A program made the position numbers and the translations under genes. Shown here in pieces: positions 7,342-51,823 of a stretch of 64,000 nucleotides of DNA (position 1 is the stretch's first letter; each line of letters begins with the position of its first letter). Below the pieces are notes generated by a model. It ran no database searches. It was not told the DNA's origin and was given only the letters and a program-made list of their open reading frames with translations. Origin of the DNA: Opitutales bacterium (GTDB lineage Bacteria; Verrucomicrobiota; Verrucomicrobiia; Opitutales; Oceanipulchritudinaceae); contig JAFIGG010000001.1 in the NCBI GenBank assembly GCA_020831485.1, positions 124,001 to 188,000 on the forward strand. The letters are read 5' to 3'.

Positions 7342-7430
7342 TCAAAAGCAACACAAAGAGAGGTCTTACAACAATAACTGTTGCCAACCATTACCATCAT
7401 TGTTTCTTACTGTTATCAATATAAAAATAG
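7342..7430. promoter_or_regulatory. Divergent promoter region of BMC operon and glcDF, with candidate operator
   Basis: An 89-bp gap separates the divergent starts at 7341 and 7431, so promoters for both operons must lie here. Bases 7395-7413 read CATCATTGTTTCTTACTGT. Nearly the same string (one substitution and one extra base) is found at 35223-35242 upstream of the GntR/LacI-type regulator gene, and GTTTCTTACTG (7402-7412) recurs in reverse complement at 35161-35171. A shared operator is therefore plausible. No convincing -35/-10 pair stands out by eye. Confidence 0.45.
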
Positions 7431-8807
7431 ATGAATCTAAAAAAATGCCCTGACTTTCTGAGAGCGGATCAGTGCCTGAATGACCGTGAAGACCTGACCA
7501 CTTATGCCTTTGATGGCACCGCTGGAATCCGACAGTTGCCCGCCCTGGTGGTCTTTCCGGAATCGACTGCCGAAGTGGCGGATTGCATTCGATGGGCCCG
7601 GGAATGGGGCCTGAATGTTGTTACCCGGGGTTCGGGCACAGGGCTTGCGGGCGGCAGCGTGCCTGCTGACAGCAATGACAGTCTGGTCCTCTGCCTCAAC
7701 CGAATGAACCGGATCCTGGGCCTGGATGTAAAAAACCTCACTCTCCGCGTGGAGCCAGGGGTGATCACCCAAAAGATCAACGAGCACATTGCTCCGCACG
7801 GGCTGTTCTATCCGCCCGACCCCAGTTCGCAGAAGATTTCAACCATCGGCGGCAATGTCGCCAACAATTCAGGGGGCTTGCGCGGGCTCAAATACGGGGT
7901 GACCCGGGATTACGTGATGGCCCTCGAGGTTGTGCTCGCAAGCGGCGAGATTGTCCGGCTGGGCAATGCCTGCGTCAAGGATGTCGCGGGCTACTCGCTG
8001 AAGGAGCTCTTTATCGGCAGCGAGGGAACTCTGGGCGTAGTTACCGAAATCCTGCTCAAACTCATTCCGGCCCCGGCCGCCAAACAAACCCTGCTCGCAA
8101 CCTACGACTCGATGGAAGCCGCCTCGGCAACGGTCTCCGCGATCATCGCCGCCAGGATCGTTCCCTGCACAATGGAGTTCATCGACCGCTTCACCCTGCA
8201 GAGCGTCGAGGCGTTTGCCAAGCTTGGCCTGCCAACGGATTGCGAGGCCGTGCTGTTGATCGAAACCGACGGCCATCCCCAGGCGGTGCAGGAGGAAGCC
8301 GCAGCCATGACTGACATTGCCAGGGCGCAGGGAGCCCTGCAAATCCAGCTGGCGAGGGACGCCGCGCACGCCGAGCAACTGGCCAGTGCACGCAGGTCGG
8401 CTTTTGCAGCTGTTGCCCGGATCCGGCCCACAACCATTCTCGAAGACATCACAGTGCCGCGCAGTCGGCTGGTTGAAATGGTCCGGTTTGTCCAGGAAAC
8501 GGCACGCCAGTACGACCTCAAAATCGCGACTTTCGGCCATTTTGGTGACGGCAATCTGCACCCGACCATTCTCACCGATGAAAAAGACGAAGCGGAAATG
8601 GAACGCGTCGAACAAGCCCTTGAGGCGCTGTTTCAAAAGACGCTCGAACTGGGCGGCACCATTACTGGCGAACACGGTGTTGGCCTGGCCAAGAAAAAGT
8701 TTCTGCAAAAACAGTTTAACGATTACAGCTACGAGCTGCTCAAGCTGGTGAAGCACTCTGTGGATCCGGACAACCTTTTAAACCCCGGAAAAATCTTCGA
8801 TGTCTGA
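7431..8807 (+). CDS. glcD: Glycolate/lactate oxidase FAD subunit GlcD
   Basis: A 458-residue FAD-linked oxidase of the vanillyl-alcohol-oxidase fold. The PCMH-type FAD domain contains GSGTGLAGGSVP near residue 64 and GGNVANNSGG near 142. The C-terminal domain holds FGHFGDGNLHP and GTITGEHGVG, typical of GlcD and D-lactate dehydrogenases. It oxidises glycolate or D-lactate and passes electrons, with GlcF, to the quinone pool at the membrane. The start ATG at 7431 has no clear ribosome binding site. It overlaps glcF by 8 bases. glcE is absent here, as in many two-gene versions, so glycolate versus lactate specificity is open. It is divergent from the BMC operon, which may supply its 2-hydroxyacid substrate. 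Confidence 0.88.
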   Translation: MNLKKCPDFLRADQCLNDREDLTTYAFDGTAGIRQLPALVVFPESTAEVADCIRWAREWGLNVVTRGSGTGLAGGSVPADSNDSLVLCLNRMNRILGLDVKNLTLRVEPGVITQKINEHIAPHGLFYPPDPSSQKISTIGGNVANNSGGLRGLKYGVTRDYVMALEVVLASGEIVRLGNACVKDVAGYSLKELFIGSEGTLGVVTEILLKLIPAPAAKQTLLATYDSMEAASATVSAIIAARIVPCTMEFIDRFTLQSVEAFAKLGLPTDCEAVLLIETDGHPQAVQEEAAAMTDIARAQGALQIQLARDAAHAEQLASARRSAFAAVARIRPTTILEDITVPRSRLVEMVRFVQETARQYDLKIATFGHFGDGNLHPTILTDEKDEAEMERVEQALEALFQKTLELGGTITGEHGVGLAKKKFLQKQFNDYSYELLKLVKHSVDPDNLLNPGKIFDV

Positions 8808-10095
8808 GCGGCTTAAGAAACTCGACTACTCAGTCCTTCAACAATGCATGCACTGCGGCATGTGCCTGCCAAACTGCCCGACCTACGACACCACTGGCAT
8901 TGAGCGCAACAGTCCGCGGGGTCGTATTTCGCTGATGCGGGCCATCGCTGACGATGAACTGGATGTTTCGAAAAAATTCAGTGATGAAATGTATTATTGC
9001 CTCGGCTGCCTGGCCTGCGTGAGTGCCTGTCCGGCTGGCGTCGACTACGCGCACATGTTCGAGAGCGCGCGGGCCGACATCGAGGATGCCGGTTTGCTCG
9101 ACAACCCGCAGCGGCGGTTCTGGCGCTGGTTCACACTGAAGGTTTTGTTCACCCGGCCAAGACTGCTGCGTATAGCTGGACGCTTCTTGTGGCTTTACCA
9201 GGTTTGCGGTCTGCAGCGGCTGCTGCGCAAGCTCCACTTCCTGGGCCTCATGCCGAAACGCCTGCGCGAACTCGAGCGCCAGACGCCATCCGTGCAGTCC
9301 CGATTCTCGCACCAGCTCATCGCCGAATGGGAACACCCGCAGGTTGAGGACAAGCCGCGTTACCGCGTCGGCCTTCTTACCGGCTGCGTCCAGGACCTCG
9401 CTTTCAGCGATATCAACCGCGACACAGCCGATGTATTGCTGGCCAACCACTGCAGCGTGTTCACCCCCAAAGCCCAAGGCTGCTGCGGATCCCTGCACGG
9501 ACACAACGGTGCACCCGATTTGGCTAAAACCCTGGCGCGCCGCCTGATCGATCAATTCCCGCTCGAAGAGCTCGACGCCATCATCTCCAATGCCGGCGGC
9601 TGCGGCAGCCATCTCAAGCATTTTGCCCGCTTGCTGGCGGACGATCCGGCCTATGCAGAACGCGCCCGACAATGGGATCAAAAGCTCAGGGACATTCACG
9701 AGTGGCTGATTGAGATCGGCCTTGCGCCATTCCCAACCCAAAAGGAAACCCTCTCCGCAACCTACCACCCGTCCTGCCATCTGCACCACGGTCAGGGCAT
9801 TCAGAAACAACCCCTTGAGCTTTTGCGCCAGGTCCCCGGGCTGAAGCTGATTCCATTAAAGGAAGCCGACTGGTGCTGCGGCAGCGCCGGCATCTACAAC
9901 ATCACTCAACCCAAACAGGCCGAACTCCTCCAGCAGCGCAAGGCATCCCATATCCGCGCCACAGGCGCCCAGGTAGTATTGACTTCCAACCCCGGCTGCC
10001 ACCTCCAGCTGCAGAATGCAACGGATGCAAAACAACCTGAGTGGAAGGTGATGCACCCAGTTTCACTGATCGCCCGAGCTTACCGACATTCCTAA
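8800..10095 (+). CDS. glcF: Glycolate oxidase iron-sulfur subunit GlcF
   Basis: A 431-residue iron-sulfur protein. Two ferredoxin-like 4Fe-4S motifs lie near the N-terminus (CMHCGMCLPNCP and CLGCLACVSACP). They are followed by two CCG domains of the heterodisulfide-reductase/GlcF type (TGCVQDLAFS with GCCGSLHGHNG, then SCHLHHGQGI with WCCGSAGIYN). It takes electrons from the FAD subunit GlcD and passes them to quinone. The ATG at 8800 overlaps the glcD stop, so the two are co-translated. The length is close to the E. coli protein (about 407), with a short insertion in the middle. The gene ends without a visible terminator, convergent with kbl. Confidence 0.9.
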   Translation: MSERLKKLDYSVLQQCMHCGMCLPNCPTYDTTGIERNSPRGRISLMRAIADDELDVSKKFSDEMYYCLGCLACVSACPAGVDYAHMFESARADIEDAGLLDNPQRRFWRWFTLKVLFTRPRLLRIAGRFLWLYQVCGLQRLLRKLHFLGLMPKRLRELERQTPSVQSRFSHQLIAEWEHPQVEDKPRYRVGLLTGCVQDLAFSDINRDTADVLLANHCSVFTPKAQGCCGSLHGHNGAPDLAKTLARRLIDQFPLEELDAIISNAGGCGSHLKHFARLLADDPAYAERARQWDQKLRDIHEWLIEIGLAPFPTQKETLSATYHPSCHLHHGQGIQKQPLELLRQVPGLKLIPLKEADWCCGSAGIYNITQPKQAELLQQRKASHIRATGAQVVLTSNPGCHLQLQNATDAKQPEWKVMHPVSLIARAYRHS

Positions 10096-26128: not shown

Positions 26129-26575
26129 ATTCACAAAAATGCAAACACTTACATAACAATAACGCCAGGGAGGTGTCAAGCCTGGGTTGAGCAGCGAAAC
26201 TAACGAGGGTGCAATCAAGATCAAGAGGAAGGATTTCTGACATCTCCATTCTTGATCTTGGTTCTTTATCTTGATCTTGATCCCCCGGATAAAGAATAAG
26301 AATCGGACTGGAATTTGAGCTGCTACCAAGTGTGATTGCGCGACGAAGTGACCTTTTCAGATCAAGATCAAGACCCAAGAAAAAGATCAAGAGGAAGGAT
26401 TTCTGGCATCTCCATTCTTGATCTTGGTTCTTAATCTTGATCTTGATCCCCCGGATTTTGAGGGGAAAACATGCGAATTTACGGATTTGGGAATCCATGA
26501 TAACGATTCAGAGTGAATACATTTTAGATTGAAAATTTCTTGCTTATTTAATAACGTTTTAAAAATAAGTAATTA
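26129..26575. repeat. Intergenic repeat island, left side of S23 gene
   Basis: This stretch holds no recognisable gene. It contains two directly oriented copies of a structured repeat (26212-26290 and 26360-26456), each beginning and ending with GATCAAGATCAAGA / TCTTGATCTTGATC-like arms that can pair into a long hairpin. The first copy is followed by a tail beginning AAAGAATAAGAATCGGACTG (26291-26340), the second by a tail beginning TTTTGAGGGGAAAACATGCG (26456-26494). The last 60 bases before the S23 ATG are strongly AT-rich compared with the neighbourhood. Confidence 0.8.
26360..26456 (+). repeat. GATCAAGA structured repeat, copy 2 (full length)
   Basis: A full-length copy of the dispersed element. 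The outer arms GATCAAGATCAAGA and TCTTGATCTTGATC are exact inverted complements, and an inner pair (AAGATCAAGA with TTCTTGATCTTG) nests inside. Other copies in the same direction are at 26212-26290 (5' truncated), 26980-27077 and 27157-27240, and an inverted one at 41775-41840. Confidence 0.85.
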
Positions 26576-26944
26576 ATGCAAATTATATTTGATCATGAAA
26601 AACTGCACGTTTATCAGCTATCCCTCGATTTTGTTGCATTTTCCGAGGAATTGCTGGTCGATATTCCCTCTCGAATTGCGTCGCGCGACCAATTGGAGAG
26701 GGCTTCGACATCAATCCCCCTTAATACAGCCGAAGGTAACGGAAAATCAACAGTGAAGGACCGGTGCCGGTATTTCTATAATGCCAGAGGTTCTGCATTG
26801 GAATGTGCAGCATGTTTAGATGTTCTGACGCGAAAGAGGCTTATAAAGGAGGAAAAATCGATAATCGGAAAAGACATGCTTAAAGAAATTGTTTCAATGT
26901 TAGTAGGGCTAATTCGAAGCCAAGACGGTGATTGGGAATGCTGA
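26576..26944 (+). CDS. Four-helix-bundle protein (S23 / 23S rRNA intervening-sequence protein family)
   Basis: A 122-residue protein of the S23 family (TIGR02436-type four-helix bundle). It shows the N-terminal FDHEKLHVYQLSLDF, central RASTSIPLNTAEGNGK and RYFYNARGSALECAACLDVL that define the family. Members were first found encoded in intervening sequences of 23S rRNA; a function as RNA- or DNA-binding chaperone has been proposed but is not settled. Here there is no rRNA. The gene sits inside an array of structured repeats, and its last codons already belong to a 176-bp direct repeat (26934-27109 and 27110 onward). Base composition is AT-richer than the surrounding genes, which suggests acquisition with the repeat element. 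Confidence 0.88.
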   Translation: MQIIFDHEKLHVYQLSLDFVAFSEELLVDIPSRIASRDQLERASTSIPLNTAEGNGKSTVKDRCRYFYNARGSALECAACLDVLTRKRLIKEEKSIIGKDMLKEIVSMLVGLIRSQDGDWEC

Positions 26945-27307
26945 TTCCGATTGAGGTCGTGACTTGGATTGACCTTCTGAGATCAAGATCAAGACCCAGG
27001 AAAAAGATCAAGAGGGAGGATTTCTGACATCTCCATTCTTGATCTTGATTCTTTATCTTGATCTTGATCCCCCGGATTTTGAGGGGAAAACATGCGAATT
27101 TACGGATTTGGGAATGCTGATTCCGATTGAGGTCGTGACTTGGATTGACCTTCTGAGATCAAGATCAAGACCCAGGAAAAAGATCAAGAGGGAGGATTTC
27201 TGACATCTCCATTCTTGATCTTGATCTTGATCCCCCGGATAAAGAATAAGAATTGGACTGGAATTTGAGCCGCTAACAAGTGTGATTACACCCAACTAAC
27301 GAACCTT
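26945..27307. repeat. Intergenic repeat island, right side of S23 gene, with 176-bp direct repeat
   Basis: No gene is seen here. A unit of 176 bp starting GGGAATGCTGATTCCGATTG at 26934 is repeated from 27110; each unit contains one GATCAAGA structured repeat (26980-27077 and 27157-27240). The second core is about 12 bases shorter because one arm segment is missing. The last copy is followed by the AAAGAATAAGAATTGGACTG tail that also follows copy 1 on the far side of the S23 gene. The tail order is therefore A, B, gene, B, A, consistent with one repeat element having inserted into another. Confidence 0.85.
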
Positions 27308-38492: not shown

Positions 38493-39689
38493 ATGAAAAA
38501 GGCCTTGCTCGCATTCGACAAGTTCAAGGACGCGCTTGACGCCCTCGGCGCCTGCGAAACCGTTTCGGCGGTTATTCGCGAACACAGTCCGGACACGGAA
38601 ATTCGACGGATGCCGCTCTCCGATGGAGGCGAAGGCTTTGCCCAGATCCTCACGGCTGCAGCGGGTGGTGAACTAAAGGAGCTCAAAGTTGCGGGTCCCC
38701 GCCTTAAACCAGTGCAGGCCCAGTATGGCTGGGTCCAGATAGAAAAACTTCCCTCTCAGGTCGCGGATATACTGCAAATCCCAGCGCAGGGCAGGCTTGC
38801 AGTAATTGAAATGGCTCAAGCCGCCGGCATCGAAAGCCTGCACGCTTCGGAACGCGATCCCTGGCACACCAGCAGCTTCGGCGTAGGCGAAATGATGGCC
38901 GACGCTGTGGCCAGCGGGGCCGACGCAATCCTGCTGGGGATCGGTGGCAGCGCGACCATTGACCTCGGCGTTGGCGCCCTCGAGGCGCTGGGATTGCAAT
39001 TTTATGACCGTGATCTGCAACCCGTTCGGCAAATGACGCCGGCACGCTGGAAACTCGCGGCCACTGTCGGCAGCACCTTAAAACTGGCCGGCAAGATGCC
39101 ACCGGTCCGAATTGCCTGCGACGTGCGCAACCCCTTGGTTGGGGACAAGGGCGCAACGCGTGTCTTCGGACCGCAAAAAGGCCTGAAAGCCAGGGATATC
39201 CCGCGGATGGAGCGTTGGGTCGACAAAATGGCCCGCCGCCTTCTGGGCTGCTTTGGCACCGACTGGGATTCCTACGAAACAGAATTGAACCGCCCCGGCA
39301 GCGGTGCAGCCGGCGGCATTGCCTTCGGACTGCGGACTGCCCTCGCCGATGTCGAGCTGGTGGCGGGCTTTGAGCTCTTCAGCCTCTGGTGTCGACTCCC
39401 TGAGAATCTGGACTGGGCCGACACCATATTCACTGGTGAAGGTGGGTTGGACGCAGGCACCTTGAACGGCAAAGGGCCCGGTTCACTGATCCAGCGGGCA
39501 CGCCCCGACCAACAAGTCATTTTTATGGCTGGACGGATAGACGCGGAAGTCCAGTCTCGGCTTTCCAACGAGTATCCCTGGGTTTCCTGTAACGCTCTCA
39601 GCCCGGCCCACTGGCCTCTGGAAAAAGCACTGCGAGAGACCCGGAACCAACTGGCCAGTCGAGCACGCGATTACATTCTGCATTCATGA
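38493..39689 (+). CDS. Glycerate kinase (GarK/GlxK family)
   Basis: A 398-residue glycerate kinase of the PF02595 type. The start ATG 38493 gives MKKALLAFDKFKDAL, the family's typical opening (substrate-binding F-K-x-x-L/A). Later motifs are PLSDGGEGF, ILLGIGGSATIDLG, GSGAAGGIAFGL and FTGEGGLDAGTL. It phosphorylates glycerate to 2-phosphoglycerate and so could close the pathway from glyoxylate or hydroxypyruvate. An open frame from 38424 is possible but less likely. The downstream DUF2062 gene overlaps by ATGA. Confidence 0.92.
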   Translation: MKKALLAFDKFKDALDALGACETVSAVIREHSPDTEIRRMPLSDGGEGFAQILTAAAGGELKELKVAGPRLKPVQAQYGWVQIEKLPSQVADILQIPAQGRLAVIEMAQAAGIESLHASERDPWHTSSFGVGEMMADAVASGADAILLGIGGSATIDLGVGALEALGLQFYDRDLQPVRQMTPARWKLAATVGSTLKLAGKMPPVRIACDVRNPLVGDKGATRVFGPQKGLKARDIPRMERWVDKMARRLLGCFGTDWDSYETELNRPGSGAAGGIAFGLRTALADVELVAGFELFSLWCRLPENLDWADTIFTGEGGLDAGTLNGKGPGSLIQRARPDQQVIFMAGRIDAEVQSRLSNEYPWVSCNALSPAHWPLEKALRETRNQLASRARDYILHS

Positions 39690-40351
39690 CCATCGATCCC
39701 GAAGAAGAAAACCTCCAGACTCTGCGTCGCGAGCGCATTGCCCGGACCAAGCGTTTCCTTCGCAAGCTGCCGCGGCGCACAAATATCCACCGCTACCCTG
39801 TCCTGAAGTGGTTCGCCGCCTCGGCACGCAAGCGGTCCTACCTTTGGAGCTTTCGGGTGCAGGCGGTCACGCCAGCGCTTTATGCGGGTTTCATCCTGGC
39901 CTTCCTTCCCCTGTATGGAATCCAGCTAATCCTCTCTTTTGTGCTGTCGCTGATCTTTCGTGCGAATCTTGCCGTTGTCGTCGCCCTACAGTTCATCACC
40001 AACCCGCTGACGGTCATACCCATCTATTTCACGGCTTTTCAAATCGGACGGCTCTTCCTACGACTGTTCGGGCTCGAAGGGCCCCATCTGAACATGACTC
40101 AGGCCCGAGCTCTTTTCAGTGGCATCCATCAGGGTGATTGGGGTTCAAACCTCCAGTTCTTTTTCAGCGTCATTGGATTGACCAGTCTGGGAGCACTCAT
40201 GATGGGCATCTTCTGCGCTGCAATTGCCAACGTTGTCTACAAGGCAACCGCCCGCGAGGTCACCCTCTCCTACCAGCGCCTCAAAGAGCTGCAGGCGCGC
40301 CGGGAGGCCGTTGCGCGTTCAGCCCAAGAAAACCATACTGAAAACCATTAA
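39686..40351 (+). CDS. DUF2062 membrane protein
   Basis: A 221-residue protein with a basic N-terminus (about 1-50) and then membrane segments at about 65-85, 90-120 and 160-185, including NPLTVIPIYFTAFQIGR, the DUF2062 core. DUF2062 proteins have no settled function. The ATG overlaps the glycerate kinase stop. An internal piece of this gene (39955 to about 40080) is present again at 49306-49424 as part of a mosaic pseudogene, with almost only synonymous differences. Confidence 0.88.
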   Translation: MTIDPEEENLQTLRRERIARTKRFLRKLPRRTNIHRYPVLKWFAASARKRSYLWSFRVQAVTPALYAGFILAFLPLYGIQLILSFVLSLIFRANLAVVVALQFITNPLTVIPIYFTAFQIGRLFLRLFGLEGPHLNMTQARALFSGIHQGDWGSNLQFFFSVIGLTSLGALMMGIFCAAIANVVYKATAREVTLSYQRLKELQARREAVARSAQENHTENH

Positions 40352-40404: not shown

Positions 40405-41679
40405 ATGCCAAATCGCCGTTCCTTTATCCGCACCACCTCAATCGCAGCAGGCGCCCTTGCCTTCGCGCCCTTCAGCCTGGCATCCAATGGCCGCCGGGGC
40501 CAGACCCTCCCGGGCATCGATGTACTCGAACGTAGTGGCTTCCAATTACTTCGAAACCAGCGCGTGGGCCTCCTTACCAATCCGGCGGGCGTCAATCGCC
40601 AGGGCACCTCTACCATCGACGTGCTCAGGCGGGCATCGAACGTCAACCTGGTAGCCCTGTTCGGACCAGAGCACGGCATTTACGGGGATGAGCGAGCCAA
40701 TGTGCCGATACAGGACCGCGTCGACCCGCGCACCAATCTACCGGTTTACTCGCTGTATGGGCGCTTTCGCAAACCGACCCCGGAAATGCTCCAGCGCATC
40801 GACACCCTGGTCGTCGATCTGCAGGATGTAGGCTCCCGCAGTTACACTTACATCAGTTGCATGCGCTATGCGATGGAGGCCTGTTTTGAAAACAACAAGC
40901 GTATCGTCATCCTTGATCGCCCCAACCCAATAGGGGGATTGAAGATCGACGGCCCCTGGCTGGAACGGGAATGGATGAGTTATGTCGGGGCCTTTCAGGT
41001 CCCTTATGTGCACGCCCTGACGATTGGCGAAATCGCCCGCATGGCCAAAAACGAATCTGACGTGCTGCCCATTCCCGACGATGTTCGCCGCCGCGGCCAA
41101 CTTGAAGTGGTGCCGATGCAGAACTGGTCCCGAGACATGCTTTGGACGGATACAGGTATGAACTGGGTGCCGACCTCGCCGGCCATTCCGGATGTGGCTG
41201 CAGCCATGGGCTACGCGATGACCGGCCTGGGCTGTCAACTGGGCGGATTCAGCCACGGCTACGGCACCCGCCATCCCTTCCGCCTGTTGCAATTCAGCGG
41301 GCGTTCGCCGGAAGCCATCGCCGAAGCCTTGACCGCACGACGCATTCCCGGACTGGAGTTTCGGGTCATTTCCTTCCAGGAGAACGGCCGGACTCACCGC
41401 GGCACCTATGTGCTGGTCCGCAGCTGGCGCGACCTGCGGCCGACCGAAATCAGCTTCCACCTGATGGCCCTGGCAGCCCAATGGAACTCAAATAATCCCT
41501 TCTCAGCCGCCAGCCAGGGACTGCAGGAACTGTTCACCAAACATGTCGGCGAAGGTGCTGTCATGGAAGCCCTCAAACGCGACGGACCCAACTTCCAAGT
41601 TGCCCCCTTCCTCCGCCGTTGGGAACAACGCAACGCCCAGTACGCCCGCCAGAAACAGCGCTGGCATTTATACAGCTGA
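40405..41679 (+). CDS. Exo-beta-N-acetylmuramidase NamZ-like protein (DUF1343, GH171)
   Basis: A 424-residue protein. A twin-arginine-like signal (NRRSFIRTT followed by IAAGALAFAPFSLA) suggests export by Tat. The DUF1343 domain shows GLLTNPAGV, LFGPEHGIYGD, YSLYGRFRKPTPEML, LQDVGSRSYTYI, LDRPNPIGG and NWVPTSPAIP, the pattern of NamZ, which releases N-acetylmuramic acid from peptidoglycan ends. It probably acts in the periplasm in cell-wall recycling or scavenging. A 30-base piece of it (40946-40975) reappears in the mosaic at 49425-49454. No terminator is seen downstream; a repeat region follows. Confidence 0.88.
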   Translation: MPNRRSFIRTTSIAAGALAFAPFSLASNGRRGQTLPGIDVLERSGFQLLRNQRVGLLTNPAGVNRQGTSTIDVLRRASNVNLVALFGPEHGIYGDERANVPIQDRVDPRTNLPVYSLYGRFRKPTPEMLQRIDTLVVDLQDVGSRSYTYISCMRYAMEACFENNKRIVILDRPNPIGGLKIDGPWLEREWMSYVGAFQVPYVHALTIGEIARMAKNESDVLPIPDDVRRRGQLEVVPMQNWSRDMLWTDTGMNWVPTSPAIPDVAAAMGYAMTGLGCQLGGFSHGYGTRHPFRLLQFSGRSPEAIAEALTARRIPGLEFRVISFQENGRTHRGTYVLVRSWRDLRPTEISFHLMALAAQWNSNNPFSAASQGLQELFTKHVGEGAVMEALKRDGPNFQVAPFLRRWEQRNAQYARQKQRWHLYS

Positions 41680-41774
41680 GGTTGCCGAAAGGATTTGTTG
41701 GGCTGTGGGGGCTGTGGGCTGTAGCGAGCCAACGATAGTGGTTCGTTGGATACGCACAGGCAACCCATCCCAAA

Positions 41775-41840
41775 CCAAGATCAAGAATGGTGATGCCAGA
41801 AATCCTCCCTCTTGATCTTTTTCTGGCGTCTTGATCTCAG
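41775..41840 (-). repeat. GATCAAGA structured repeat, inverted copy
   Basis: Read on the minus strand this matches the core of the repeats around the S23 gene (AAAAAGATCAAGAGGGAGGA, then TTTCTGGCATCACCATTCTT), about 15 kb away and in the opposite direction. Just before it, 41699-41760 holds GGGCTGTGGG repeats and a CCAACGA/TCGTTGG hairpin. No S23 gene is attached here, so it is a solo copy. Confidence 0.8.
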
Positions 41841-41922
41841 ATCTCAGAGTTGATCAGTCCTGCTGGGTTGAGAACTGGATAATCAGCAGATACCTATTTT
41901 CGGTTAAGCAGTATGCATGAGA

Positions 41923-42324
41923 TCAGATCGCTTGAACCGCTTCCACCGGCGTCATAATCCGCGCTGGTCTGCAAATTTCTTCCGGAAAATGAGCGGTGTT
42001 CCCGGTAACCAGAACTTTGTCAGCTGTCGCCAGAGCAGTTCCAAGAAATACGGTGTCGTCCGGGTCGGGCAAATCGGGTGCGTCCAGCGGAAGAATTTGA
42101 TCGGAGGGACCGAAGCAATTCAAAAGATTCGCCACCACCAATGGCGATAGTTTGAACTTCGGGCGCATGAGAACCGTGCGGTATTCGGCGAGCATGGGCG
42201 GCGACCACGCCAAGCGAATGCGACCTTCCACCGCCGCCCGCATGATGCGGTCGCAGTTGCCTCCAGCCGTAAGAGCGGCGGAGACCAGCACGTTCGTGTC
42301 GATAACCCAAACAGGAACCGTCAT
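41923..42324 (-). CDS. PIN-domain toxin (COG1569-type)
   Basis: A 133-residue PIN-domain protein, probably a toxin RNase. Acidic residues of the metal site are Asp9 in VIDTNVLVSA, Glu47 in LAEYRTVLMRP and the DPDD cluster at about 87-90, with VTGNTAHFP close to the C-terminus; this matches the TIGR00305/COG1569 toxin family. It follows the antitoxin gene with a one-base overlap (TAATG), the usual order and coupling of a toxin-antitoxin operon. Target RNA unknown. Confidence 0.87.
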   Translation of the reverse strand: MTVPVWVIDTNVLVSAALTAGGNCDRIMRAAVEGRIRLAWSPPMLAEYRTVLMRPKFKLSPLVVANLLNCFGPSDQILPLDAPDLPDPDDTVFLGTALATADKVLVTGNTAHFPEEICRPARIMTPVEAVQAI

Positions 42325-42653
42325 TAGGACTGGCCTTTACCACGCTTCGCGTGGCGCTCTTTCCTGGAAGCGGCAATCTCCGAATCGATCTCCTCCAGAG
42401 TGGTCTCGGAGGTTCCGGCGCGTGCCGCCTCGGCTTGAGCGGCATCCAATGCACGGCCCAATAAAAGGCGACGCAATGCATCCAAATCGGCCTCGATCCC
42501 CAATCCACTTGTGGGAATCAAGTAGGCGGCCGGAACGCCGTTTTTCGTGACGACCTGAGCCCCCTCAGCAGAAACCTTGGCCATGACTTTGCCCGGTTGC
42601 TTGGAAAGTTCACGCGTGGAAATGAATGAAGTCATGGATGCAATATCGGACAT
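42324..42653 (-). CDS. Phd/YefM-like antitoxin
   Basis: A 109-residue protein. The N-terminal half (FISTRELSKQPGKVMAKVS, then VVTKNGVPAAYLIP) is the Phd/YefM DNA-binding fold in which a nearby gene encodes the toxin; the C-terminal half is helical and acidic and would cover the PIN active site. ATG 42653 (MSDIAS) is chosen, with 42635 as an alternative. It directly precedes the PIN toxin and probably autoregulates the pair. The Phd-type antitoxin with a PIN toxin is a common but not universal pairing. Confidence 0.82.
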   Translation of the reverse strand: MSDIASMTSFISTRELSKQPGKVMAKVSAEGAQVVTKNGVPAAYLIPTSGLGIEADLDALRRLLLGRALDAAQAEAARAGTSETTLEEIDSEIAASRKERHAKRGKGQS

Positions 42654-42730
42654 TTGTCCGTCTTTGTCAACGGTGATGAAGTTGGGGGTAGTGAACCAAC
42701 AGAGTAGTAGGGTTAGGGCTTGGTTCTCTA

Positions 42731-42780
42731 TCGGGCACGAGGCGTGCCCGACCCCGGGGCGGTGGACGCCCCCGTCCACC
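42731..42780. repeat. Two-hairpin palindromic element
   Basis: Two neighbouring hairpins: TCGGGCACG-AGG-CGTGCCCGA (42731-42751) and GGTGGACG-CCCC-CGTCCACC (42761-42780). The layout resembles the 90-bp elements at 49545 and 50391 and the hairpin at 35271, pointing to a family of palindromic intergenic elements. It lies between the toxin-antitoxin pair and the GH4 gene. Confidence 0.65.
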
Positions 42781-42832
42781 GATGCATGAAGCATACCAGA
42801 ACCGACACCACCCCAAACAGTTAAAATAGCGA

Positions 42833-44290: not shown

Positions 44291-44322
44291 GATGGTTGGA
44301 TGGTTGGATGGTTGGATAGTTG
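44291..44322 (+). repeat. Short tandem repeat (GATGGTTG)4
   Basis: Four consecutive 8-bp units GATGGTTG, the last with one substitution (GATAGTTG), between the GH4 and surface-protein genes. The piece copied to the mosaic at 49451-49510 begins within the last unit (44313), so this microsatellite marks a breakpoint. Confidence 0.85.
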
Positions 44323-44492
44323 GAAGGGAGCTATCCCAAAATCGGGGTAAAAACTCAAGCGATTGTTGTGAAGCCTGTCCATACACTGGAAGGGGCTTTC
44401 GCCCAAAGCCCCCAAACACCACCTACCAAAGTAGGTATCCCATGCTCAGCTTTGCATTTGAGACGAGACACAAGGGCGGTTTGGATATCAAT

Positions 44493-48428: not shown

Positions 48429-49304
48429 ATGCCGTACCGCGATGCAATGCGAGAGGATCATTGGCAAAGATTGCAAAACTCGGTCACCCGGCTCTTCAGA
48501 TCTGGTCTCCGACTTGAGACCTTTATGTCCCGAACGGCCAAAGCTGTGCGGGGCACCATTGACTGCGACTTGTGCACGGTCGGGGTTTTGGACCTGCGCA
48601 GCCGTAATCTGAAGGTCTATTATGATGAGCAGCATGCGGACTTCAGTCAGGCTATGGAAGGCTACGCCGCTCACATGCACAAATACCCACTTTTCCGATT
48701 CGACCCTTGGGTGGCTGAGGGGAAACCCTTCCTGCGCAGCGATTTCTACTCGGAACGTCAGTTTCGTGACCTGGACATCTATTCGGACTGCTTCCGCGTA
48801 GCCGGTGTTTCAGAGCATGCAGCCATTCCAATATTTACAGACAAAAACACAATTGTCTTTGCCGGACTGGAGAGGTCCGGCAGGAGTTTCTCCGATGAAG
48901 ACCGGGAAAGACTGACCCTCCTTCAGCCGCATCTGACAAACGCGCGAAGAACAGCCCTTGCCTGCTCCAAGATCAAGCCAGAGAACATCCAGGAGGAACA
49001 TTTCGCCATGACTGAATTAAGTGCGCGTGAAGCGGAAGTGCTGACTTGGATGATCAGGGGAAAAACTCATGCAGAAATCGGCGCCCTGTTGCGACTGCGC
49101 ACTCAGACAATAAAAGGCTATGCGCAAAATGTTTACCAAAAGCTCGGCGTAGACAACCGTCATGCAGCCATATTGCGCGCCCTCGAAATCGCCTCTTTCG
49201 AATCGGTACCGAAGTTACTTCTTCAAGTTAAGAGAGCTAAGATCAAAGCTCGGCTAAAGCTCAGACAAAACTCACAATCGGGTCTTCGACAAAATCGGCT
49301 CTGA
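48429..49304 (+). CDS. LuxR-type transcriptional regulator with altered C-terminal tail
   Basis: A 291-residue regulator. A GAF/autoinducer-like N-terminal region (about 1-190) precedes a LuxR helix-turn-helix (LSAREAEVLTWMIRGKTHAEIG, then TIKGYAQNVYQKLGVDNRHAA) at about 197-255. The ligand is unknown. The last 13 residues (from about 279) and the stop codon are encoded by a 40-base piece that is 38/40 identical to the 3' end of mtaB (50499-50538), read in another frame. The natural C-terminus was therefore replaced or extended by recombination. It could regulate the large surface protein upstream, but no operator was found. Confidence 0.85.
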   Translation: MPYRDAMREDHWQRLQNSVTRLFRSGLRLETFMSRTAKAVRGTIDCDLCTVGVLDLRSRNLKVYYDEQHADFSQAMEGYAAHMHKYPLFRFDPWVAEGKPFLRSDFYSERQFRDLDIYSDCFRVAGVSEHAAIPIFTDKNTIVFAGLERSGRSFSDEDRERLTLLQPHLTNARRTALACSKIKPENIQEEHFAMTELSAREAEVLTWMIRGKTHAEIGALLRLRTQTIKGYAQNVYQKLGVDNRHAAILRALEIASFESVPKLLLQVKRAKIKARLKLRQNSQSGLRQNRL

Positions 49305-49510
49305 ACTTTCGTGCGAATCTTGCCGTGGTCGTCGCCCTACAGTTCATCACCAATCCGCTGACGGTCATCCCTATCTACTTCACGGCTTTTCAAATCGGAC
49401 GACTCTTCCTGCGCCTGTTTGGAGTCGACGGCCCCTGGCTGCAACGGGAATGGAAAGTTGGAAGGGAGCTATCCCAAAATCGGGGTAAAAACTCAAGCGA
49501 TTGTTGTGAA
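49265..49510 (+). pseudogene. Mosaic of four copied pieces (mtaB end, DUF2062, NamZ, intergenic)
   Basis: A chimeric stretch made of segments found elsewhere in this window, all on the plus strand: 49265-49304 matches 50499-50538 (end of mtaB, 38/40); 49306 to about 49424 matches 39955 to about 40075 in the DUF2062 gene (about 91%, differences nearly all synonymous); 49425-49454 matches 40946-40975 in the NamZ gene (29/30); 49451-49510 matches 44313-44372 (59/60). Junctions fall in short shared strings (CTGA, TCGA-GGCCCC, TGGA). The last three pieces keep their genomic order. An open frame here encodes a chimera and is not a functional gene. Confidence 0.88.
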
Positions 49511-49703
49511 ACGTATCCACATGTGATGGTTCCCGCCTTCGGCCAGCGGCGCTCTCGGCGAGAGCGCCCTACCCCATTCCGATGTTTTTCACGCACACAG
49601 AATGGTGGGGCAGTTTCGCCGAAACCGCAGCGTACAATCAGGAGCAATGGATCTTCTCTGATAAAAATATTGAAATAATCAGATTTTAGAAGACAATATT
49701 GTC
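49511..49703 (+). other. Non-coding spacer with REP-like element before vapBC
   Basis: No gene. It holds the first 90-bp palindromic element (49545-49634). The last ~60 bases before the antitoxin start are AT-rich (ATAAAAATATTGAAATAATC) and probably contain the vapBC promoter. Confidence 0.6.
49545..49634 (+). repeat. 90-bp palindromic element, left copy flanking vapBC
   Basis: A 90-bp element with two hairpins: GGCGCTCTCG-G-CGAGAGCGCC and a second GTTTCGCCGAAAC stem. An equally long copy lies at 50391-50480 in the same orientation. The first hairpin differs from the other copy at two stem positions on each arm, and pairing is kept (GC/GC versus AG/CT), so the structure itself appears conserved. 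Confidence 0.87.
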
Positions 49704-49910
49704 ATGAAATTCAGCGTAGAGATGGAGGATTCGACCCTCGAAAAGATCATGCTGGCAACTGGTATACCCAAAAAAGGTCCTGCCGTAGCCAAGGCTGCTA
49801 CTGAATACTTGCGTCGAGCGATGGCCAAAGAATTTGCCTCCATGGTAATGGAGGGCAAGTTCGAGGACTACCCCCTGACCAACGACGAAATAGAGCAGTC
49901 CGACCGCTAG
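49704..49910 (+). CDS. VapB-like antitoxin
   Basis: A 68-residue protein with an N-terminal strand and helix (MKFSVEMEDSTLEKIMLATG) that resembles ribbon-helix-helix antitoxins such as those of the VapB group, followed by a charged C-terminal half (EFASMVMEGKFEDYPL). It starts 52 bases before the PIN toxin gene and would bind and inhibit it. The small size and pairing are the main support. The pair lies between two 90-bp direct repeats. Confidence 0.75.
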   Translation: MKFSVEMEDSTLEKIMLATGIPKKGPAVAKAATEYLRRAMAKEFASMVMEGKFEDYPLTNDEIEQSDR

Positions 49911-49962
49911 TGGTGCGAACCACTAGATCGGAATTATCCCGTAACAAGTAATTGCTAAAGCC

Positions 49963-50379
49963 ATGGTTCTTGTCGACACCAGCGCATGGATTGAGTTTTT
50001 CCGGCGGGACGGAGACCCGGCTGTCAAACTAGCCATGAAAGCATTGATTGAAGAACTCGAAGCCACACTCTGCGGACCTGTGGAGATGGAATTCCTCGGA
50101 GGCGCACTGCCCCACGAGCGTCCCCGGATCCAGAATCGCTTCGATATACTCCCTTACCTCAAGAATGATCAAAAAATCTGGCGCGAAGCGGCCACCAATT
50201 ACGCAATCCTGCGCGGCAAAGGCATCACATTGCCCTGGAACGATGCGATTATCGCCTCTCTTGCCCTCCGCAATGACTGCCGAACCTACGCTGTCGATCG
50301 CCACTTCAAGGCGATGGAAAAGCACTTGGGTCTACGCCTCTACAAGCCGAGCTACAATGGCAATTTTCAGCCAGAATAG
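49963..50379 (+). CDS. VapC-like PIN-domain toxin
   Basis: A 138-residue PIN-domain RNase. Asp5 in VLVDTSAWIEFFR, Glu41 or Glu43 in VEMEFLGG, Asp94 in WNDAIIASLALR and Asp112 in AVDRHFKAM give the four acidic residues of the metal site. Length and motif order fit VapC, which cleaves tRNA or rRNA when free of antitoxin. It follows a VapB-like gene, and 11 bases after its stop the second 90-bp palindromic element begins. It is the second toxin-antitoxin pair in the window and belongs to another PIN subgroup than the first. Confidence 0.9.
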   Translation: MVLVDTSAWIEFFRRDGDPAVKLAMKALIEELEATLCGPVEMEFLGGALPHERPRIQNRFDILPYLKNDQKIWREAATNYAILRGKGITLPWNDAIIASLALRNDCRTYAVDRHFKAMEKHLGLRLYKPSYNGNFQPE

Positions 50380-50390
50380 TCGGAATGGTC

Positions 50391-50480
50391 AGCGGCAGTC
50401 TCGGCGAGACTGCCCTACCCCATGTCGATGTTTTTCACGCACACAGAAAGGTGGGGCGGTTTCGCCGAAACCGCCGCGTA
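50391..50480 (+). repeat. 90-bp palindromic element, right copy flanking vapBC
   Basis: The direct repeat partner of 49545-49634, same length and orientation. Hairpins are GGCAGTCTCG-G-CGAGACTGCC and GGCGGTTTCG-C-CGAAACCGCC, joined by CTACCCCATGTCGATGTTTT and 20 further bases that are conserved in the other copy. It ends 9 bases before the mtaB stop and could also act as a terminator for convergent transcripts. Confidence 0.87.
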
Positions 50481-50488
50481 TCCATCCA

Positions 50489-51823
50489 TCAACCCCCTAC
50501 AAAACTCACAATCGGGCCTTCGACAAAATCGGCGCTGATGCGGTCGAGACGTACGCGCACAAGTTGATTGCGAATGTCGGAGGATTGCGGATTTTCCGTG
50601 AGGACGCGGATGTAGTTGGCGGTGTAGCCGGGGAAGCGATCGTCGCGGGGGTCTTCGAGCAGGACATTCATTTCCTGGCCGAGGTAGCGCTGCATGAAGT
50701 CGTAGCGTTTCTGGCTGCTGTAGCGACGCAGCTGCAGGCAGCGGCGGTTGCGTTCTTCAATCGGCACTACGTCGTTTGCACGCTTTACTGACAATGTCCC
50801 CTCACGCTCGGAATACGGAAACACATGGGTATAGGCGAAGCGCAGATCGTTGAAAAATCGACAGGTCTCCTCAAAATCCGCTTCTGTTTCGCCGTTGAAA
50901 CCGACCAGGATATCGGTGCCGACGCAGAGGTCGGGCACCTGCTTCACTGCCCGCTGAACAAAATCCGCATACTCCCCGGTTGTGTAGCGGCGACGCATGG
51001 CTTGCAGGACCTTGTCACAGCCCGACTGCAGAGGCAGGTGCAGATACGGCAGCAAGACATGCTCCCGGTCGCCCATGCGGTCGATCAAGGCCCAGGGCAC
51101 GGTAGTCGGCTCAATGCTGGAAATCCGCACCCTCAGCAGGCCGGGAATGTCGTTCAGGGCATCGACCAGGTCGACAATGTCGTGCCCCTCGTGCAGGTAG
51201 GTGCCGATGTTAACTCCGGTTAGCACCAGCTCGCGCACTCCCTTGGCAACAGCCGCGCGGGCTTCGTCCAGAGTGTTTTCCCATTGTCGGACGCGGGCAC
51301 GGCCACGGGCAAAGGGAATGATGCAGAAACTACAGAGAAAATCGCAGCCATCCTGAATCTTCAGGTTGGCCCGTTTGTCGAAGGGCAAGTCGCCAACAAA
51401 CTGGATGCTGAAATCCTTGCGGTCAATGCGGTCACGAACGATGACCGGCTTCTCATTTTTTCCCAGGCGGGCGTAATCGACAACGCTGAGCTTGTCCTGA
51501 TTACCGATGATCAGGTCGACGCCCGGAATCGAGGCAATCGCCTTGGCACCCATCTGCGAGTAACAACCAATGACGGCCGTGAAGGCCTGAGGATTGCGGC
51601 GAACAAACTGCCGGATCATCTTCCGGCATTTCGCATCCGCCTCCCGCGTCACCGTGCAGGTGTTGATGATGCCCAGGTCTGCATCCTCACCGAAGGGCAC
51701 CATTGCATAACCGGCGACCTCCAGCTTCTCCTTAATGATTTGGGATTCCGCCTGATTCAAGCGGCAGCCCAGCGTCGTCACCGACGCCCGCAAAGGTTTA
51801 GCACTGCCCTTCAGGTTCACCAT
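50489..51823 (-). CDS. mtaB: tRNA threonylcarbamoyladenosine methylthiotransferase MtaB
   Basis: A 444-residue radical-SAM methylthiotransferase. The N-terminal UPF0004 domain carries three Cys for the auxiliary cluster (LGCRLNQAES, INTCTVT, VIGCYSQMG); the radical-SAM C-x3-C-x2-C is CDFLCSFC; a TRAM-like region ends the protein. The LGCRLNQAE start marks the MtaB/YqeV subgroup, which converts t6A37 to ms2t6A37 in tRNA. The last codons are the source of the 40-base copy found in the LuxR gene tail. It is convergent with vapC. Confidence 0.92.
   Translation of the reverse strand: MVNLKGSAKPLRASVTTLGCRLNQAESQIIKEKLEVAGYAMVPFGEDADLGIINTCTVTREADAKCRKMIRQFVRRNPQAFTAVIGCYSQMGAKAIASIPGVDLIIGNQDKLSVVDYARLGKNEKPVIVRDRIDRKDFSIQFVGDLPFDKRANLKIQDGCDFLCSFCIIPFARGRARVRQWENTLDEARAAVAKGVRELVLTGVNIGTYLHEGHDIVDLVDALNDIPGLLRVRISSIEPTTVPWALIDRMGDREHVLLPYLHLPLQSGCDKVLQAMRRRYTTGEYADFVQRAVKQVPDLCVGTDILVGFNGETEADFEETCRFFNDLRFAYTHVFPYSEREGTLSVKRANDVVPIEERNRRCLQLRRYSSQKRYDFMQRYLGQEMNVLLEDPRDDRFPGYTANYIRVLTENPQSSDIRNQLVRVRLDRISADFVEGPIVSFVGG

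Follow-up and report, generated by a model that had tools for sequence, protein, structure and literature searches.

Origin of a 246-base mosaic of nearby sequences upstream of an mtaB-type gene in an uncultured Opitutales-type bacterium

The question raised by positions 49265-49510 of the window, i.e. of the whole 64,000-nucleotide stretch of DNA analysed here, is how 246 bases of a chromosome came to consist of copies of four nearby sequences, and whether these were joined in a single event or are the remains of a larger duplication.

Composition of the mosaic

Self-BLAST of the window and a base-by-base display showed that the stretch is made up of four abutting direct copies of nearby DNA, with all four sources no more than 10.6 kb apart and all copies on the plus strand (Table 1). 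On one side the mosaic is bordered by a LuxR-type gene, of which shard 1 also forms the last codons and the stop, and on the other side by a PIN-type toxin-antitoxin pair (49704-50379, plus strand); the mtaB-type gene lies further downstream on the minus strand. The source order along the mosaic is 50499 > 39950 > 40946 > 44313, without any change of strand. The initial annotation had described four window-internal pieces within 246 bp, all in plus orientation and the last three in genomic order, and had proposed a comparison of the window with itself; the self-BLAST bore out all three points and recovered the reported pieces. For two shards the self-BLAST hits ran past the true ends, i.e. 49301-49435 matched 39950-40084 (90%, E 9e-46) with a true end near 49423/40072, and 49451-49519 matched 44313-44381 (94%, E 2e-23) with a true end at 49510/44372. 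The pieces are also less clean than had been claimed, as 11 of the 123 sites in the DUF2062 shard do not match the source. Additional shards were sought in the tail of the LuxR-type gene and in positions 49511-49526, where no convincing match was found. The names DUF2062, NamZ, GH4, LuxR-type and mtaB are backed by Pfam, the mtaB-type product carrying the UPF0004 and Radical_SAM domains that MtaB-type enzymes have, while the autotransporter name comes from outside the Pfam search.

Table 1. Positions in the window of the mosaic pieces, their sources, their joins and the neighbouring elements
Feature	Position	Strand	Description	Match
LuxR-type regulator gene	48429..49304	+	GerE domain; 3' end now runs into shard 1	
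Shard 1	49265..49304	+	copy of 50499-50538, mtaB 3' end, antisense to mtaB	38/40 identical, 95%, E 2e-10
Shard 2	49301..49423	+	copy of 39950-40072, DUF2062 gene, sense	112/123 identical
Shard 3	49425..49454	+	copy of 40946-40975, NamZ gene, sense	29/30 identical, 97%, E 4e-6 in window
Shard 4	49451..49510	+	copy of 44313-44372, divergent intergenic region GH4 gene/autotransporter-like gene	59/60 identical
Source of shard 1	50499..50538	+	inside mtaB (50489-51823, minus)	
Source of shard 2	39950..40072	+	DUF2062 gene (39686-40351)	
Source of shard 3	40946..40975	+	NamZ gene (40405-41679)	
Source of shard 4	44313..44372	+	between GH4 glycosidase gene and autotransporter-like gene	
Join 1/2	49299..49305	+	both sources in register CGCTGAT; mosaic CTCTGAA, two private substitutions	
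Join 2/3	49425..49428	+	TCGA common to both sources; mosaic base 49424 matches neither	
Join 3/4	49451..49455	+	TGGAT common to both sources; mosaic TGGAA	
R1, REP-like palindromes	49527..49634	+	49541-49634 pairs with R2	
R2, REP-like palindromes	50387..50480	+	between PIN toxin gene and mtaB	

Shared strings at the joins had been given as CTGA, TCGA-GGCCCC and TGGA. Microhomology is indeed present, but the strings common to the sources are CGCTGAT (seven bases), TCGA (four) and TGGAT (five), with substitutions in the mosaic. At a fixed single join, the chance of sharing at least as many bases is 0.0005, 0.018 and 0.005, respectively. All three joins carry or adjoin private substitutions of the mosaic (49300, 49305, 49424 and 49455), either as a result of later mutation or of error-prone joining. 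Beyond the local sources, the shards had no match elsewhere in the 3.86 Mb genome. A scan for patchworks, which covered 794 kb of the same genome (21%) taken as stretches, did not reveal a second four-piece cluster with unique sources. With these chance values at the joins and no other such cluster in the 794 kb, the pattern exceeds chance.

Other patchworks of this sample (C1 7.4-8.9 kb, C14 and C22) were tangles of dispersed or direct repeats and were rejected as unique-source mosaics. A mobile or gene-capturing element was also rejected, since neither the mosaic nor its pieces were found elsewhere in the genome, in relatives or on plasmids, and only the adjacent REP-like part is dispersed. 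The plasmid search with the mosaic gave no match, and the first junction had no exact match in public viral contigs. The nearest relatives examined belong to the same family only, with MtaB up to 71% and DUF2062 up to 56% identical; none of the matches in these relatives carries the mosaic and no synteny was seen.

The LuxR-type gene now finishes with codons of the mtaB shard, encoding NSQSGLRQNRL. The effect of this new tail is probably small, since similarity to the nearest relative already stops at residue 256. The gene neighbourhood of the closest LuxR match (G004, 44%) differs from the one here. No promoter was found by consensus in the shards, including the intergenic one, and apart from the new C-terminal tail of the regulator the scar is probably without function of its own.

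The REP-like palindromes of R1 start 17 bases downstream of the mosaic, and self-BLAST aligned 49541-49634 with R2 over 94 bp (89%). R2 folds at -26.4 kcal/mol (z -4.0). Although the hairpin halves of these elements are dispersed (52 matches in the genome), the linker between the two hairpins occurred only at R1 and R2 in the 794 kb. Since R2 (50387-50480) is the one other place with this 94-bp arrangement and linker, positions 49541-49634 probably represent a fifth local copy, derived from there. The palindrome beside the scar is a plausible hotspot. Direct repeats were also seen to flank toxin-antitoxin pairs: the PIN pair lies between the 94-bp repeats (89%), and on contig C14 (L123, 1229-2659) a CopG-antitoxin-like pair at 1542-2152 lies between 253-bp repeats (94%). 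Such pairs are possibly cassettes that are exchanged via their repeats.

Duplication with loss or a single event

The best explanation, to which we give about an even chance, is that the mosaic is what remains of a local direct (tandem) duplication formed by RecA-independent template switching, the second copy of which was mostly lost. During replication or repair, a strand end at about 50538, within the 3' end of mtaB, would have re-annealed 10.6 kb upstream at about 39950 via CGCTGAT, so that the 39.95-50.54 kb segment came to be present twice, with the junction 50538|39950. Two deletions at microhomologies (40072>40946 at TCGA and 40975>44313 at TGGAT) and a third one (44372>about 49511) would then have reduced this second copy to shards, while whatever lay between the LuxR-type gene and mtaB would have been deleted from the first copy (49264>50499). 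One copy of every functional gene would thereby remain, and the LuxR-type gene would probably have lost its own stop and come to end in mtaB-derived codons. The duplication intermediate, the order of these steps and a polymerase-slippage or template-switch chemistry are what we infer from the arrangement of the pieces.

Only one of the 24 possible piece orders is allowed by tandem duplication with deletions (1/384 if the strand is free too). As expected of a shredded duplication, the pieces have kept the orientation of their sources and follow one another in ascending order, with a single right-to-left wrap of the duplicated segment. On the basis of this order, tandem duplication with embedded deletions is preferred to a single multi-switch event. 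Template switching or a collapsed duplication had been suggested from the start, and as a class of mechanism it is supported by the locality of the sources, their common orientation, the cyclic genomic order and the join strings, although these features taken together do not separate the two versions. Ku (PF02735) was not detected in the genome, which is 96.8% complete, while the Bacillus subtilis control was positive; replication slippage or template switching is therefore likelier than classical end joining, and a product of classical bacterial NHEJ (Ku/LigD) is disfavoured.

Several points count against the duplication. One duplication and four deletions that leave small shards are needed, where RecA-mediated collapse to one copy would be easier, and the R1-R2 pair needs a further step. 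No relative shows the duplication intermediate or the state before the event.

A single multi-switch event, by FoSTeS/MMBIR or serial replication slippage, is the main rival, though a less probable origin, in which a templated insertion of 246-370 bp would have been made and nothing larger would ever have been duplicated. A 3' end at the LuxR/mtaB interval would have copied 40 bp at 50499, switched back to 39950, then to 40946 and 44313 (perhaps also to 50387), and returned. Such a path calls for one event as against five, takes in R1 as the last templated piece and accords with the microhomology of seven, four and five bases at the joins, as well as with the private substitutions at or beside every join, which error-prone joining would give. 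If 49264 were joined directly to 49511, the LuxR frame would meet a stop within a few codons. The common plus orientation and the ascending order are, however, not forced by this path, the observed order being one of 24, and the mixed order and orientation that are typical, but not obligatory, of MMBIR/FoSTeS were not observed. Serial pieces of 30-123 bp made in one event were not found in the bacterial literature consulted, where complex events are mostly of kilobase scale.

Divergence of the DUF2062 shard

Both of these explanations have to face the unequal divergence of the shards. Of the 11 sites at which the DUF2062 shard departs from the resident gene, ten carry synonymous third-codon changes, and the remaining one (49305) lies at the join. 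Under free drift since the event, such an all-synonymous outcome would occur with a probability of about 2e-4 (2e-3 when transitions alone are counted), or of 0.005 to 0.03 if two join-adjacent changes are included. Third positions were changed at 10 of 39 in this shard, as compared with 1 of 60 sites in the intergenic shard (Fisher p 0.0003). Equal neutral divergence of all pieces, which is expected of a shredded duplication but not strictly defining for it, was thus not found, and a single simple clock does not fit. Later allele replacement could explain the difference, so that the claim of a shredded duplication is lowered but not dropped; under a multi-switch event the unequal divergence is left unexplained.

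The synonymous nature of all ten internal differences, together with the contrast to the intergenic shard, suggests one of three histories: the shard might derive from a diverged functional allele, the resident gene might have been replaced later by recombination, or the assembly might have mixed strains. Rarer codons are present in both versions at different sites, indicating changes on both lineages, and distant relatives do not polarise the differences (codon agreements 38 vs 27). Codon adaptation of the resident gene is lower over the copied segment than at the gene ends, which might be a weak hint at allele replacement. A second full DUF2062 copy was not found in the genome.

It is unlikely that at least the DUF2062 shard was captured from a related species, by natural transformation and illegitimate recombination, instead of being copied from the resident gene. 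Capture from divergent DNA agrees with the exclusively synonymous internal differences and with the rarer codons on both sides; but resident sequence matches the other shards at 95-98% identity, the DUF2062 piece fits the local order, the genome offers no second full copy, and the same pattern would result if homologous recombination had later replaced the resident allele or if the consensus were strain-mixed. In Acinetobacter baylyi, short-patch double illegitimate recombination inserts short pieces of own or foreign DNA at microhomologies, but these events are single patches, as opposed to the chain of four ordered pieces found here. A mixed scar, in which DNA of another species templated the DUF2062 shard during a multi-switch repair and the cell's own chromosome templated the rest, in a bacterium lacking Ku, is quite improbable.

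An assembly artefact or strain-mixed consensus, which might be suspected in a draft genome of 142 contigs whose nearest named relatives are MAGs, is improbable, since the shards differ from their sources by 2-9%, and are therefore not copies made by an assembler, and since the joins share only 4-7 bases, far below assembly overlaps; the joins also carry private substitutions and the stretch lies inside a 208 kb contig.

Comparable rearrangements and other repeats in the genome

The mosaic is a real genomic scar of an ordinary mechanism, unusually legible, and both routes considered here, the shredded duplication and the multi-switch event, have already been documented in Escherichia coli (PMC3161906). 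That such structures are rarely seen in bacteria, as the initial annotation had put it, was too strong a statement, as joins at 3-30 bp of microhomology have been reported in E. coli along with direct duplications that were partially deleted and with REP hotspots, 24% of sequenced novel junctions being at REP (PMC3161906). Direct template switches with an embedded deletion, joins at a few bases of microhomology and a preference for REP palindromes are features that the mosaic shares with the rearrangements of starving E. coli (Lin et al. 2011, PMC3161906); the latter, however, are kilobase-scale amplicons fresh under selection, whereas the mosaic is an old scar, its shards measure 30-123 bp, and no selection on it is known. 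With MMBIR/FoSTeS (Hastings et al. 2009, PMC2621351) it has in common that several short templated pieces of nearby DNA are joined at short shared strings, but it is without inverted pieces, and nothing in its order conflicts with simple duplication and deletion. In evolving E. coli, remodelling of amplicons removes co-amplified genes, and most of an extra tandem copy is lost by secondary rearrangement, as would be the case here; that remodelling is driven by IS elements and RecA, while no IS was seen at the joins of the mosaic (PMC8763031).

The locus offers a natural record, in an uncultured lineage, of how duplications may arise and vanish at tiny shared strings beside REP-like palindromes and without Ku-type joining. 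Searches across genomes for such scars could measure their frequency outside laboratory selections.

Repeats of other kinds were observed elsewhere in the genome. Within the window, a family of direct repeats occupies 26217-27287, and an inverted fragment of it is found at 41773-41848, next to a second PIN toxin-antitoxin pair (41923-42794). On contig C1 (L112, 7414-8936), an intergenic tangle of nested direct repeats lies beside a PIN/Phd toxin-antitoxin pair, and positions 8738-8815 therein join two nearby pieces, 7935-7983 and 7414-7456. Contig C9 (L068 and L069, 114865-122580) carries tandem units of 2.6 kb, about 75-82% alike, which lie just upstream of the window. On contig C62, the two copies of a 5,617-bp direct repeat (L080 and L079, 22457-28073 and 29501-35117) differ from each other only once and lie within an open frame that spans 4,220 codons or more; the repeat either arose very recently by duplication within a gene for a giant protein or is due to the assembly.
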